NCBI GenBank assembly: GCA_946541275.1
Contig: CAMNJH010000004.1
Coordinates: forward strand, 1-46,751
DNA: 46,751 nt
Source: an uncultured Prevotellaceae bacterium
GTDB taxonomy: Bacteria; Bacteroidota; Bacteroidia; Bacteroidales; Bacteroidaceae
Reading direction: 5' to 3'
Part shown: in pieces, positions 26,298 through 30,822 of the stretch
Numbering within the stretch: position 1 is the stretch's first letter
Layout of the letters: each line of letters opens with the position of its first letter
Notes under the pieces: model-generated
Database searches by the model: none
Told to the model about the DNA's origin: nothing
The model's input: only the letters and a program-made list of their open reading frames with translations
Made by a program: the position numbers and the translations under genes

Positions 26298-26738
26298 ATG
26301 AGATTAGCTTTTCTACATCGCCTGCCCATAGCCACCATGTTGTTGATGGGGGCAGCTTTGAATGTCAATTCTCAAACCTCAAGTCTCAGAATAGAAAAGG
26401 GCATTGCCTCCTATTATGGCAAGCGGGCAACGGGGCGTCTCACTAGCAGCGGTGAGCGGCTCCATCACGACAGCCTGACCTGTGCTCACAAGAAACACCC
26501 CTTTGGCACGCTTCTGCGCGTCACCAATCCTGCCAATGACAGCGTCGTCGTTGTGAAGGTCAACGACCGTGGTCCTTTTGGCCGCGGACGCATTGTCGAC
26601 CTGTCCTGGTGTGCCGCCCGCCAGTTGGGCATTCTCCGCCAGGGCATTGCTCCCGTCGTTGTTGAAGTCATCTATGACCCCCGTAAGGATGGCCCCAATC
26701 CCCCTGCTCTTGATTCTCTTTCTCGTGCCGTTCCATGA
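26298..26738 (+). CDS. RlpA-like double-psi beta-barrel protein
   Basis: Signal peptide then 'KGIASYYGKRATGRLTSSGERLHHDSLTCAHKKHPFGTLLRVTNPANDSVVVVKVNDRGPFGRGRIVDLSWCAARQLGI'. ATG at 26298 preferred over the TTG in the track. Confidence 0.9.
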   Translation: MRLAFLHRLPIATMLLMGAALNVNSQTSSLRIEKGIASYYGKRATGRLTSSGERLHHDSLTCAHKKHPFGTLLRVTNPANDSVVVVKVNDRGPFGRGRIVDLSWCAARQLGILRQGIAPVVVEVIYDPRKDGPNPPALDSLSRAVP

Positions 26739-28465
26739 AAATGGCTGTTGCTTCAGTTCTTATCATCGTGTTGGCATGCCTTTGTTCATGTAGCGGCAAG
26801 CCCATCTATCCTGACCTACTTGTTCAGGCCGATAGTGCCTATGTTCAGGGACATTATGCTCTAGCTGACAGCCTGCTCCACATTTATGATATGCATTCTG
26901 AAGATAATGACGATGCTATTCGTAATTACCATCAGTTACTAAAGATGGAGCAGAATTTCGTTTTAGGCAACCTCAATGAAAATCAATTTTCCTCTATAGA
27001 CTTTTTAGCTAGATATTATAGTGATGTAAATTTGCCTGAAAAGTATAGTAAAGTCTTACTATTCATGTCTGCTGTATATCGTTCCAGTGGAGATTATCCA
27101 GCAGCACTTGATGTACTTTTAAAGGCTAAGCAGGTGGCACATTCTATCAATAATACACGTTTACTTTGCTTAATTAGTCGTTCTCAAGGTGATCTTTATT
27201 TTGAACAACAGCTATTTGAAGAATGCATCCCGTATTATAGAGATTATTACTATTATGCCAAAGAAAATCGCGATACACTACGCATAGCACTTGCCTCTTT
27301 GTGCATGGGCAAAGTCTCAACTATCAATGATGAGGTTGATAGTACTCTGTATTATTATAAAAAAGCATTGCAATTGTCAAGGGCCAAGAGCAGTTTTAAT
27401 GAGATAGAGTCCGACGCAAAAAATCGTCTTGCAGATATTTATATTCAGACTTGTGAATTTGATTCAGCGTTGATCTATATGCAACACAACGAAGAAAATG
27501 ACTACAATTGGGCTTTTTGGCATTATGGGCAAAATCATTTAGACTCTGCGGCCTTCTATCTCAACAAATCATTAGGAAGATTTAGATGGGCTGGGGAAGT
27601 AGAGTTGTTGAGAATGCTGGCACAATTGGAGATGCAAAGAGGTAATAGTTTAGTTGCACTTAATTATTATCAACAGTACATTTCAGCAGATGATTCTCTG
27701 AAAAATCAGCATAAGATAGAGCAAACATTAAAGACAAATGCCCAGTTTAATTACAATTCCATCAAGCAAGATCGTGACAAAATGGAAACTAAAGGGCAGA
27801 GAATGAGACATTTGCTATTCACTATTCTAGTTGCCGTTTTATTGTTGAGTGTAGCCAGTTTCTTTGCATGGAAATCATACAGGCAAAAGAAGAATGCAGA
27901 ATTGGTGCGCGAAAGACGTTTGAAGATAGAGGTGGAAAAGCATTATCGCCAAAGCATGGAGCAGTTGGAAAAGAATCAAATGCGGATGGTGGAACTGGAG
28001 CAGCAGTTGGAAGCAGCTTTGAGAGAAGGCAATGATGAAAAGGCCGAAGAACTAAGGGCTGACACTCAGATTCTGACGGCAGAGAACCAGGAAATCAGGG
28101 CCATTCAGCAGAAGAAGAAACTTCAGGAGGATAATTTCAAACGTCAGCCTCTCTATTCTATGGTGATGAATAATGTAGGCACAAATGCCAAGTTGCTTAC
28201 ACCAGATGACTGGCAGCGCCTGGCTGTGCTCATTGATGCTACCTATTCTGATTTTACCAGCCGATTGATTAGTCTTTCCAAGTTGAAGGATACGGAATTG
28301 CACGTTTGCTATTTGCTGAAAATGGGAGTCTCGCCTGTTGACATCGGACCAATGGTTGGGCGTGTGAAGTCAACAGTCAGCATGATGAGTTCTCGGCTCT
28401 ATAAAAAGTTTACCCAGGGTAGGGGCTCTACCAAAGAACTTGCAGACTTTCTTTTGAAGTTCTAG
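26735..28465 (+). CDS. Lipoprotein-like TPR protein with one TM helix, coiled coil and C-terminal LuxR-like HTH (putative membrane-bound regulator)
   Basis: ATGA overlap with the upstream gene; LACLCSCSG lipobox-like; TPR-like helices; TM 'HLLFTILVAVLLLSVASFFAW'; coiled coil; 'LKDTELHVCYLLKMGVSPVDIGPMVGRVKSTVSMMSSRLYKKF' HTH. Confidence 0.75.
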   Translation: MKMAVASVLIIVLACLCSCSGKPIYPDLLVQADSAYVQGHYALADSLLHIYDMHSEDNDDAIRNYHQLLKMEQNFVLGNLNENQFSSIDFLARYYSDVNLPEKYSKVLLFMSAVYRSSGDYPAALDVLLKAKQVAHSINNTRLLCLISRSQGDLYFEQQLFEECIPYYRDYYYYAKENRDTLRIALASLCMGKVSTINDEVDSTLYYYKKALQLSRAKSSFNEIESDAKNRLADIYIQTCEFDSALIYMQHNEENDYNWAFWHYGQNHLDSAAFYLNKSLGRFRWAGEVELLRMLAQLEMQRGNSLVALNYYQQYISADDSLKNQHKIEQTLKTNAQFNYNSIKQDRDKMETKGQRMRHLLFTILVAVLLLSVASFFAWKSYRQKKNAELVRERRLKIEVEKHYRQSMEQLEKNQMRMVELEQQLEAALREGNDEKAEELRADTQILTAENQEIRAIQQKKKLQEDNFKRQPLYSMVMNNVGTNAKLLTPDDWQRLAVLIDATYSDFTSRLISLSKLKDTELHVCYLLKMGVSPVDIGPMVGRVKSTVSMMSSRLYKKFTQGRGSTKELADFLLKF

Positions 28466-28494: not shown

Positions 28495-28538
28495 GTTCAA
28501 TTATAGTTCAATTATTCACGATTGAACTGTAATTGAAC
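28495..28538. promoter_or_regulatory. 44-bp four-half-site palindromic operator, copy A
   Basis: GTTCAATTATAGTTCAAT-tattcacg-ATTGAACTGTAATTGAAC (17/18 arm complementarity); 8 nt upstream of a TTG-N20-TAACTTTG promoter. Confidence 0.7.
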
Positions 28539-28546
28539 CGTTTTCT

Positions 28547-28577
28547 TTGTGCCTCTTTCCCTGATGCTTTAACTTTG
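28547..28577 (+). promoter_or_regulatory. Promoter next to operator A
   Basis: TTG (28547-28549) - 20 nt - TAACTTTG (28570-28577). Confidence 0.7.
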
Positions 28578-28755
28578 CACCCAGAAATCGATTTCGTGTG
28601 TTCCAGCTACTTATAACGATTTTATTCGTGTTGTTGCTCCAGAACTACCTGAGAGTTACATACTCGAAATACGAGACGATAAAGGTACGGTATATACTGA
28701 GTCAGAAGATTAATCAACAATAAAGCTATTATTAACATTTTAAAAACAAGGTATT

Positions 28756-29553
28756 ATGAAAAGTTTAGTTATTTCTATGAGTATGATGCTCAGCCTGCTG
28801 TTTGTGTCGTGTTCGAAGGATGATACCAGCATTACAGACCGTGACCCAGTCGGTCGCGAGATGACTTCCGAGGAGAAGCAGAACACAGTCTTAAATGACA
28901 ATCCCTATGCATTTGTCGGTACTATTCACAATGAAGTCCTAGATCGTCTGATGTGTCAGCCTTTCTACTCCACGAGGTCAGTCCGAGATTCTCTGGAACT
29001 GTTGGCTACGATGAAAGCAAATGCTTATGCCGAATATGCAGAATTAGAGGAAGGCACATTGATGAGGGTGGAGGATTTTAATGATTTGTTTGATGAAGTG
29101 ATGGGAATGTCGCTTAATGCTACTTCACCTTCATCGTCAATTAGTTTAGAAAAGTACCAAATGAGTTCCCAACTGGAATCTTGTGTCAGTGAAATTGATA
29201 ACATCGTGGACGATAATGACACGAATATAGTCTCATTGCTAAACAGAGTAGACAGTGTCCAAAGTGTTGCCATGGCTTGTCCGATGACTACAGGCAGGGA
29301 TGTGGTTCTTTCAGTAGCCTCCATAGCATCAAGTTCGTTGACATATTGGTATGATAACTTCCAAGAAGTTTATGAACCTCTTCCTGGTCTTCCTGTGGAA
29401 ATAGAAAATATAAGAAAATGGAAAGATGCTTGTAAGGCTGATTATAAAGCAGGAAAAAGCGTATGGCAACTAGGCCGAGCGGGAGGCGTCTGGGGCTGGG
29501 TCGCAGTAGGAGTTATAGTAGGAGCCGCTTCAGCCGTTAGTTATTATCTATAG
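28756..29553 (+). CDS. Uncharacterised lipoprotein with Gly/Ala-rich hydrophobic C-terminal tail
   Basis: MKSLVISMSMMLSLLFVSCSKDD lipoprotein signal; 'NPYAFVGTIHNEVLDRL'; tail GRAGGVWGWVAVGVIVGAASAVSYYL. Confidence 0.8.
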   Translation: MKSLVISMSMMLSLLFVSCSKDDTSITDRDPVGREMTSEEKQNTVLNDNPYAFVGTIHNEVLDRLMCQPFYSTRSVRDSLELLATMKANAYAEYAELEEGTLMRVEDFNDLFDEVMGMSLNATSPSSSISLEKYQMSSQLESCVSEIDNIVDDNDTNIVSLLNRVDSVQSVAMACPMTTGRDVVLSVASIASSSLTYWYDNFQEVYEPLPGLPVEIENIRKWKDACKADYKAGKSVWQLGRAGGVWGWVAVGVIVGAASAVSYYL

Positions 29554-29586
29554 TGCTCTTCTTATCGTCGCCAAGAAGGTAAACTC

Positions 29587-29719
29587 CAACGCCAGAACTA
29601 CAACTAGACATAGATTAATGTAAAAACGAAAAGGGCCAGGCGTGGCCAGTCTTTGAAAGCAGCTCTCCGCAACCTAGTGGGGAAGTGGAGGGCTCTTTCT
29701 TCATGTAGCTCTGGCGTTT
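29587..29719. other. Nested inverted repeats (possible structured RNA or terminator region)
   Basis: CAACGCCAGAACTAC (29587-29601) vs GTAGCTCTGGCGTTT (29705-29719), 13/15 complementary; inside it GAAAGC-AGCTCTCC...GGAGGGCT-CTTTC. Confidence 0.4.
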
Positions 29720-29776
29720 TCCTCAGTTTTGGCTGCTTTTGAAACTTGCCAAGACAGCTGATACCCCTATTGCAGA

Positions 29777-29820
29777 GTTCGCAAAAGTTCGCAAGTTTTT
29801 TTATGCGAACTATTGCGAAC
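29777..29820. promoter_or_regulatory. 44-bp four-half-site palindromic operator, copy B
   Basis: GTTCGCAAAAGTTCGCA-agttttttta-TGCGAACTATTGCGAAC (16/17 arm complementarity); 8 nt upstream of a TTG-N20-TAACTTTG promoter. Confidence 0.7.
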
Positions 29821-29828
29821 ACATTTTC

Positions 29829-29859
29829 TTGCTTTTTATCTTCGCTTGTTTTAACTTTG
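29829..29859 (+). promoter_or_regulatory. Promoter next to operator B
   Basis: TTG (29829-29831) - 20 nt - TAACTTTG (29852-29859), then GCATTCAGAAATC, matching GCACCCAGAAATC at promoter A. Confidence 0.7.
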
Positions 29860-29910
29860 CATTCAGAAATCAGGCAATGGTTGTCTGGTAAGAACTAAAT
29901 GTATTGCGCT

Positions 29911-30102
29911 ATGAACAGGAAATTAGCAATTCTCTCAAGCCTCGTTTGCTTTCTTGGTTTTATGTTCTGGGTTCTCGCCTTGAAATACAGCCCCAATGCA
30001 TATATGATTTACATGATTATGGCAGGCTTCGTCTGGGTCGTTTTGACTGGAGTGTGGTGTAAAATGGCAAGCAAAGAAGGTGCACATGGAAAAGTTCATT
30101 AA
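29911..30102 (+). CDS. Small membrane protein, two predicted TM helices
   Basis: MNRKLAILSSLVCFLGFMFWVLALKYSPNAYMIYMIMAGFVWVVLTGVWCKMASKEGAHGKVH; ATG at 29899 also possible. Confidence 0.5.
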   Translation: MNRKLAILSSLVCFLGFMFWVLALKYSPNAYMIYMIMAGFVWVVLTGVWCKMASKEGAHGKVH

Positions 30103-30304
30103 GTTTATTATAGATGAAATCGTAGATGACCTCTTTCTGGTATGCATTTTTGCATTGATAGGTGGCATTTTCCTCGGAGAAGAGTTTACCCTCAAAAACC
30201 TAGGAATCACTCTTCGTGACTTCGTGATTGTTGATGTCATTATTGGCTCAATTTGTTTCGCGGGGATGCTCTATAAGAGACGTACCAATAGAAAGCATGA
30301 TTAG
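30080..30304 (+). CDS. Small membrane protein overlapping the preceding ORF
   Basis: Hydrophobic helices LFLVCIFALIGGIFLG and FVIVDVIIGSICFAGMLY; start at 30080 or 30086. Confidence 0.5.
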   Translation: MHMEKFIKFIIDEIVDDLFLVCIFALIGGIFLGEEFTLKNLGITLRDFVIVDVIIGSICFAGMLYKRRTNRKHD

Positions 30305-30344
30305 TGCATTCGAATCAATATTGAAGGTCAGTTTGAAGAACTAT

Positions 30345-30822
30345 GTACGCGCGCGCGTATATATAGCGCGAAAAATGGTGCTACAAGTGCTACTGACGAA
30401 CTTAACCTGCTGATATATTGCTATTTACGGGTGCAAATTCACCTACGTTTCGTGCTACCGAAAATGCTACTGGTGCTACCAAGTGAAAAAGTCGGCACCA
30501 GAAGAAAAAAGGGCGGCGACTTTTTGTAAAAAGTCAACGAGATTTTTCAAAAAGTCGCCGCCGTTTTGAAAAATCTCGCCGCCGTTTGAAAAATACCAAA
30601 TGAGACATAGAGAAAAGTAGCGTTCCACTTTTCTCTATGTCTCATTTTGCACCCAAAAGTCATGATACTAAAACGAAAGTGCGTTAGCAGCAGTAGCATT
30701 TCCGGTAGCACTTTTCTTGAGCAAAAATGCACCCAGAACCACCACAATGTCAGGCAATTACGCGCTTCGGTAGCACTTGTAGCACTTTCTTTCCGACATA
30801 TTTACACGCACACGCGCGCGAG
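30345..30822. repeat. Palindromic non-coding element, copy 2, bracketed by alternating CG tracts
   Basis: GTACGCGCGCGCGTATATATAGCGCG at left, CACGCGCGCGAG at right; GTGCTACAAGTGCTAC (30378-30393) exactly inverted at 30770-30785; core of AAAAAGTCGCCGCCGTTTT repeats; 21-bp perfect hairpin at 30598-30647. Confidence 0.75.

Follow-up and report, generated by a model that had tools for sequence, protein, structure and literature searches.

Paired operators of one geometry and different half-sites, probably read by two members of a membrane-tethered regulator family of Prevotella

Two operators built to the same measure

Two 44-bp operators, A and B, in the 46.7 kb window (the whole stretch of DNA analysed) of a Prevotella genome from gut or rumen probably serve as binding sites, each with its promoter, for two one-component regulators that belong to a single large, membrane-tethered family present in Prevotella and its relatives. 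Operator A (28495-28538, + strand), GTTCAATTATAGTTCAAT-TATTCACG-ATTGAACTGTAATTGAAC, consists of two direct and two inverted half-sites GTTCAAT(T) repeated with a period of 11 bp, whereas operator B (29777-29820, + strand), GTTCGCAAAAGTTCGCA-AGTTTTTTTA-TGCGAACTATTGCGAAC, is a palindrome of four half-sites GTTCGCA(A) with a period of 10 bp. The two lie 1.3 kb apart and have in common the outer GTTC...GAAC and an equal outer footprint. In both cases, the palindrome ends 8 nt before the TTG of the -33 element, assigned from the sequence (28547-28549 for A and 29829-29831 for B, both +), and a 20-nt spacer leads from there to the -7 box TAACTTTG (28570-28577 and 29852-29859, both +), which is located 31 nt past the operator and 75 nt from its start. 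These coordinates, lengths and distances, taken over from a preliminary description of the region, all proved correct when re-measured.

The arrangement is rare. Four agreeing half-sites at a period of 10 or 11 were found only at A and B in a scan of the window, and the four-half-site structure occurred in none of 30 simulated Markov-1 windows. The window contains 22 TAnnTTTG boxes, with a tandem half-site at 30-33 nt only at A and B, and genome-wide TTGAAC-N5-TTGAAC is confined to A. By contrast, the GCAnnCAGAAATC tail that follows both operators, which the preliminary description included in the shared layout, turned out to be a general motif of promoters and starts in this genome: two more exact copies (contigs C12 and C21) stand at promoters without a palindrome, and the tail is therefore no evidence for an operator system. 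The string TAACTTTGCAnnCAGAAATC is found in four exact copies, at promoters (28570-28589 and 29852-29871 in the window, and C12:28537 and C21:15416 elsewhere in this genome, G000), and with up to two mismatches at 22 sites, compared with 0 for the reversed pattern, a recurrence that suggests a conserved transcript-start context.

The regulator gene beside operator A

The gene that ends 29 nt before operator A (26735-28465, + strand) encodes P0001, a protein of 576 aa with a signal carrying a lipobox-like cysteine (C19, nearly invariant among close homologues), a periplasmic TPR region, a transmembrane (TM) helix at about residues 360-378, a long helix (coiled coil) and a C-terminal helix-turn-helix (HTH). 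The AlphaFold (AF2) model of the last 130 residues, including the HTH, has a pLDDT of 93.6, and the top PDB matches of the HTH in Foldseek are mostly LuxR/NarL DNA-binding domains (probability up to 0.96, with weak E-values of 0.3-1), suggesting that the modelled HTH folds like those domains. Pfam recognises the TPR alone, with no match to the GerE profile at E <= 1, and no defence family was matched. The BT3442 family model NF053779 aligns with residues 92-558 (E 7e-13), at 48.1 bits against a curated cut-off of 940. The match to A2, the HTH of the TM-HTH family, has an E-value of 2.3e-67, P0001 itself being a row of A2.

Recurrence of the arrangement across the family

P0001 homologues (E <= 1e-30) are encoded in 16 of 250 genomes of the genus, its own genome counted, and a search with the TM-HTH region identified members in 98 of 150 genomes. 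Similar structures with GTTCACAA, GTTTACA, CTGCACAAA, GTTAACAAA and GTTGACAA stand directly downstream of many P0001 homologues, and those with the first four half-sites reach scores of 19-27, where shuffled sequences gave at most 11-15. The half-site varies by regulator, with GTTCACA, GTTTACA, GTTGACA, GTTAACA, CTGCACAA and GTTCAAT among the variants. It is this variation of the half-site, rather than of GTTC, that accounts for the near-empty outcome of GTTC-fixed patterns, which across 150 genomes recovered almost nothing besides A and B.

A half-site-agnostic scan of the fetched loci was applied to 139 unique family members, with a tandem repeat defined as a match of at least 7/8 at period 10 or 11; these members are related to each other, and the counts are not independent trials. 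Tandem repeats peak at 30-33 nt before TAnnTTTG (51, 65, 58 and 40 of about 368, respectively), compared with about 0-13 off the peak, and are carried by 41% of the boxes beside the regulator gene (79/192) versus 3% of the control boxes in the same loci (7/235). Given that both flanks and half-sites differ among members, shared copied sequence fails to explain the repeats. An operator was detected for 74 of the 139 members (28/65 long TPR members, 22/36 short ones and 20/22 of a lipocalin-like type), and in about half of the family none was detected within about 400 nt. Its placement differs: behind the regulator gene, ahead of it in the same orientation (autoregulation) or within a divergent promoter. 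For instance, two homologues, L043 and L056 (the latter nearly identical to L040), lack a downstream operator and carry it in the divergent promoter. The preliminary description had proposed scanning for further copies and for linkage to TPR-HTH genes, the lack of which would have spoken against its reading; both were found. Likewise, its suggestion of P0001 as a candidate binder of A gains from the recurrence of TPR-TM-HTH genes beside operators of the same geometry with other half-sites.

Three types of regulator can be distinguished. The long TPR members (64/65 with an internal TM segment) have a period of 11 in most cases and very varied half-sites. The short members, which lack the TPR (helix HSKESVASTRSR), have a period of 10 and GTTCGCAA/GTTTGCAA ahead of their own gene (21/21), with NfeD and SPFH genes next in most cases examined. 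The third type (helix STISTVRSR), with a different, lipocalin-like-looking N-terminal domain, has a period of 11 and GTTTGCAT (20/20). The choice between 10 and 11 bp is thus a trait of the regulator subfamily. The left pair of half-sites varies, with an inverted orientation in some members and a direct one in others, and it often escapes detection, so that the promoter-proximal tandem pair represents the constant core.

Several other members deserve mention. The third TM-HTH regulator of this genome (L025, contig C6) has the lipocalin-like-looking N-terminus, and its own half-site GTTTGCAT precedes a gene for a secreted protein; the idea that such a sensor resembles its target gene product was unsupported (E 0.02). 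The genome encodes a fourth family member beyond P0001, L025 and L024, a short regulator discussed below. In L048, L171, L181 and L176, the recognition helix reads SK(A/S)K... in place of ...R.R, and a distinct half-site, (A/G)TTGAATT, is common to the four.

Activation or repression

We infer that the family works as follows. The cytoplasmic HTH, probably dimeric on each tandem pair, would bind two half-sites of about 8 bp, 10 or 11 bp apart, that end about 31 nt before the -7 box and beside the -33 element; a second upstream pair, often inverted, would complete the four-site operator; and the -33-proximal pair would likely contact RNA polymerase, resulting in activation. LuxR/NarL-type proteins often activate from just upstream of -33.

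The main live rival is repression, with the TM-HTH proteins blocking the promoters until a signal arrives. The sites adjoin the -33 element, a position that certain repressors use too, and the short class is autoregulated, both of which would fit. However, operators of the scored class have a proximal pair that stops short of -33 on its upstream side and leaves the -7 box free, which is the usual position of an activator, and we regard repression as unlikely, albeit a serious contender.

Two probable readers for two operators

The TGCGAA-N4-TGCGAA motif (period 10) is present at three places in the genome: once in each arm of B, and once ahead of a TM-HTH gene on contig C58, in its promoter. 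That gene (L024) encodes a short, TPR-less TM-HTH regulator and belongs to an HTH-NfeD-SPFH operon. Given this exclusivity, the most plausible reader of B is the C58 regulator, and that of A is P0001; judging by the motifs, one family probably supplies a separate regulator for each of the two operators. B has an inverted left pair, and some C58-type promoters have a direct one; because the assembly is only 77% complete, another reader of GTTCGCAA could be missing. The preliminary description had envisaged related, specificity-diverged paralogous activators. Reading by two family members is supported, but the likely reader of B is TPR-less and encoded on another contig, and it is from promoter position that we infer activation.

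P0001 alone might instead read both operators, tolerating either half-site via the common GTTC, as could be imagined from their separation of 1.3 kb, the shared GTTC...GAAC and the common outer footprint. Yet the periods differ (11 versus 10), and the period is specific to the subfamily; furthermore, the B motif exactly equals that in the C58 regulator's own promoter and is found nowhere else in the genome. A single reader accordingly appears improbable.

With two readers, the TPR domain of P0001 would sense a periplasmic (envelope or secreted) ligand or other signal and switch on operator A, the output of which would be a DUF3244-like secreted protein, decayed in the window, and a lipoprotein. 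The first gene of operon A (28591-28713, + strand) is recognised from protein identities as a C-terminal remnant of such a protein, of about 40 codons without a start codon: it agrees at 18 of 36 positions with the C-terminal end (residues 77-112) of the protein encoded first in the L226 operon and at 15 of 34 with that of L225. The second gene (28756-29553, + strand) encodes a 265-aa lipoprotein with homologues in two other genomes, G149 and G223, where the P0001 homologue is accompanied by an operator, a small DUF3244-like secreted protein and the lipoprotein, in this order. Since the first gene is reduced to its C-terminus, promoter A would run through the remnant into the lipoprotein gene. 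Elsewhere, the first genes after TPR-type operators mostly encode secreted proteins, and Pfam assigns several of these to DUF3244; the 260-aa lipoprotein of L042 shows no recognisable homology to the 265-aa lipoprotein of the window.

The C58 protein, in turn, would read operator B and control its own HTH-NfeD-SPFH operon. Given this second target, B probably adds two small membrane proteins to an envelope regulon. The first gene after promoter B (29911-30102, + strand) is predicted from its open reading frame and hydrophobicity to encode a 63-aa membrane protein; a putative gene overlapping it (30086-30304, + strand) could encode a further predicted membrane protein of 72 aa, with no homologue in the 249 other genomes of the genus. 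Other genomes also have this autoregulated order of HTH, NfeD and SPFH genes (L207, L209, L219 and L220; 0 with the reversed-pattern control), and it is possible that the short TM-HTH regulator, NfeD and the stomatin-like SPFH protein form an envelope-stress unit of Prevotella. Further downstream, the intergenic region at 30340-30820 is odd in its own right, with gtgctac/gtagcac repeats, several AAAAAGTCG-type repeats and a long inverted repeat, AAATGAGACATAGAGAAAAGT ... ACTTTTCTCTATGTCTCATTT (about 30599-30646), that runs into TTTTGCACCC.

Divergence of half-sites and regulators

Half-sites and regulators co-diverge across the family: half-site distance correlates with regulator distance over the rest of the domain (r 0.61) and with that of the recognition helix alone (r 0.50, permutation p 2e-4). 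The covariation of half-site with recognition helix that the preliminary description proposed to check was, however, not established, given that in partial Mantel tests the helix contributed little once the remainder of the domain was taken into account (partial r 0.07-0.13, p 0.05-0.11). Residue 552 of P0001 is Ser, whereas the position is R in 127 and K in 10 of the 139 members; that Ser552 accounts for site A is only suggestive because two alignment registers are possible for the half-sites. The preserved geometry combined with diverged half-sites suggests that the paralogues would be insulated from one another.

Two further readings involve no regulator. As RNA, A and B each fold into a hairpin of about -23 kcal/mol, and A comes after the stop codon of P0001, as might be expected if they terminated transcription of the genes before them or formed RNA hairpins belonging to those genes. 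Nevertheless, stem A is A+T-rich, the usual U-tract is absent directly after A and B, no Rfam family was matched, the same repeats are also located ahead of the gene for the regulator itself and within divergent promoters, and many arms are direct rather than inverted, with a distance locked to the downstream -7 box, all of which makes this explanation very improbable. Repeated palindromes can be mobile, but A and B are unlike in sequence, each motif is found at one or two genomic places and, in comparisons across genomes, the geometry goes together with promoters, so that the chance of their being mobile or recombination repeats that came to lie before promoters by accident is negligible.

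Implications and comparison with known systems

We tentatively propose, as a possibility well short of an even chance, that Prevotella is expanding a set of insulated envelope-to-gene channels, in which paralogous LuxR-like regulators keep the promoter architecture while sensor and operator diverge together and each regulator controls private secreted proteins, among them DUF3244-like proteins and lipoproteins, which may in turn feed the periplasmic sensor. If this is true, such channels provide a natural series for reading out a DNA-recognition code. Dozens of regulator-operator pairs among paralogues, with fixed geometry and varied half-sites, make the evolution of separate specificities directly testable. 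The practical yield consists of predicted control targets for P0001, the C58 protein and their relatives and, more generally, predicted sites, promoters and target operons for widespread Bacteroidota proteins otherwise labelled TPR or hypothetical.

Among characterised proteins, BT_3442 of Bacteroides thetaiotaomicron heads the MACPF/lipoprotein cluster BT_3442-BT_3433 and was presented merely as a TPR protein, with no operator reported (PMC2954219). The BT3442 family (NF053779) resembles the present one in that a TPR protein of similar length precedes genes for a DUF3244-like protein and lipoproteins, as in G149 and G223, but P0001, at 48 bits, falls under the curated cut-off of 940. The two true BT3442 equivalogues considered, L065 and L084, show no four-site operator downstream, and among BT3442-like proteins and further TPR regulators of Bacteroidales there were a few tandem repeats but no palindrome of four sites.

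The 12-TM LuxR-type regulators DadR, CadR and HcdR of Eggerthella lenta likewise are expanded membrane-spanning LuxR-HTH paralogues that each activate adjacent genes; they differ in having an N-terminal domain of 10-12 TM segments instead of a periplasmic TPR and one TM helix, and belong to another phylum, and in the parts of the account considered here no operator code is given (PMC9734109). The DNA-binding domains of NarL, DosR, LiaR and RcsB resemble P0001 in tandem half-sites at about one helical turn and may do so in the predicted fold, whereas P0001 lacks a GerE match and has extra N-terminal helices and a membrane tether. In the open-access journal literature, we found nothing specific on TPR/LuxR membrane regulators of Bacteroidota or their operators. 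The SusR-like regulators of Bacteroides, also Bacteroidetes-specific, similarly combine a periplasmic sensor, a TM segment and a cytoplasmic HTH and activate nearby genes. Their predicted motifs, with polysaccharide genes as targets, consist of direct repeats at a spacing of 67 or 77 bp (Ravcheev 2013, PMC3878776), in contrast to half-sites 10-11 bp apart inside a 44-bp palindrome. Set beside these systems, a large family of membrane-anchored regulators that combines the same switch layout with different DNA half-sites apparently has not been described before.
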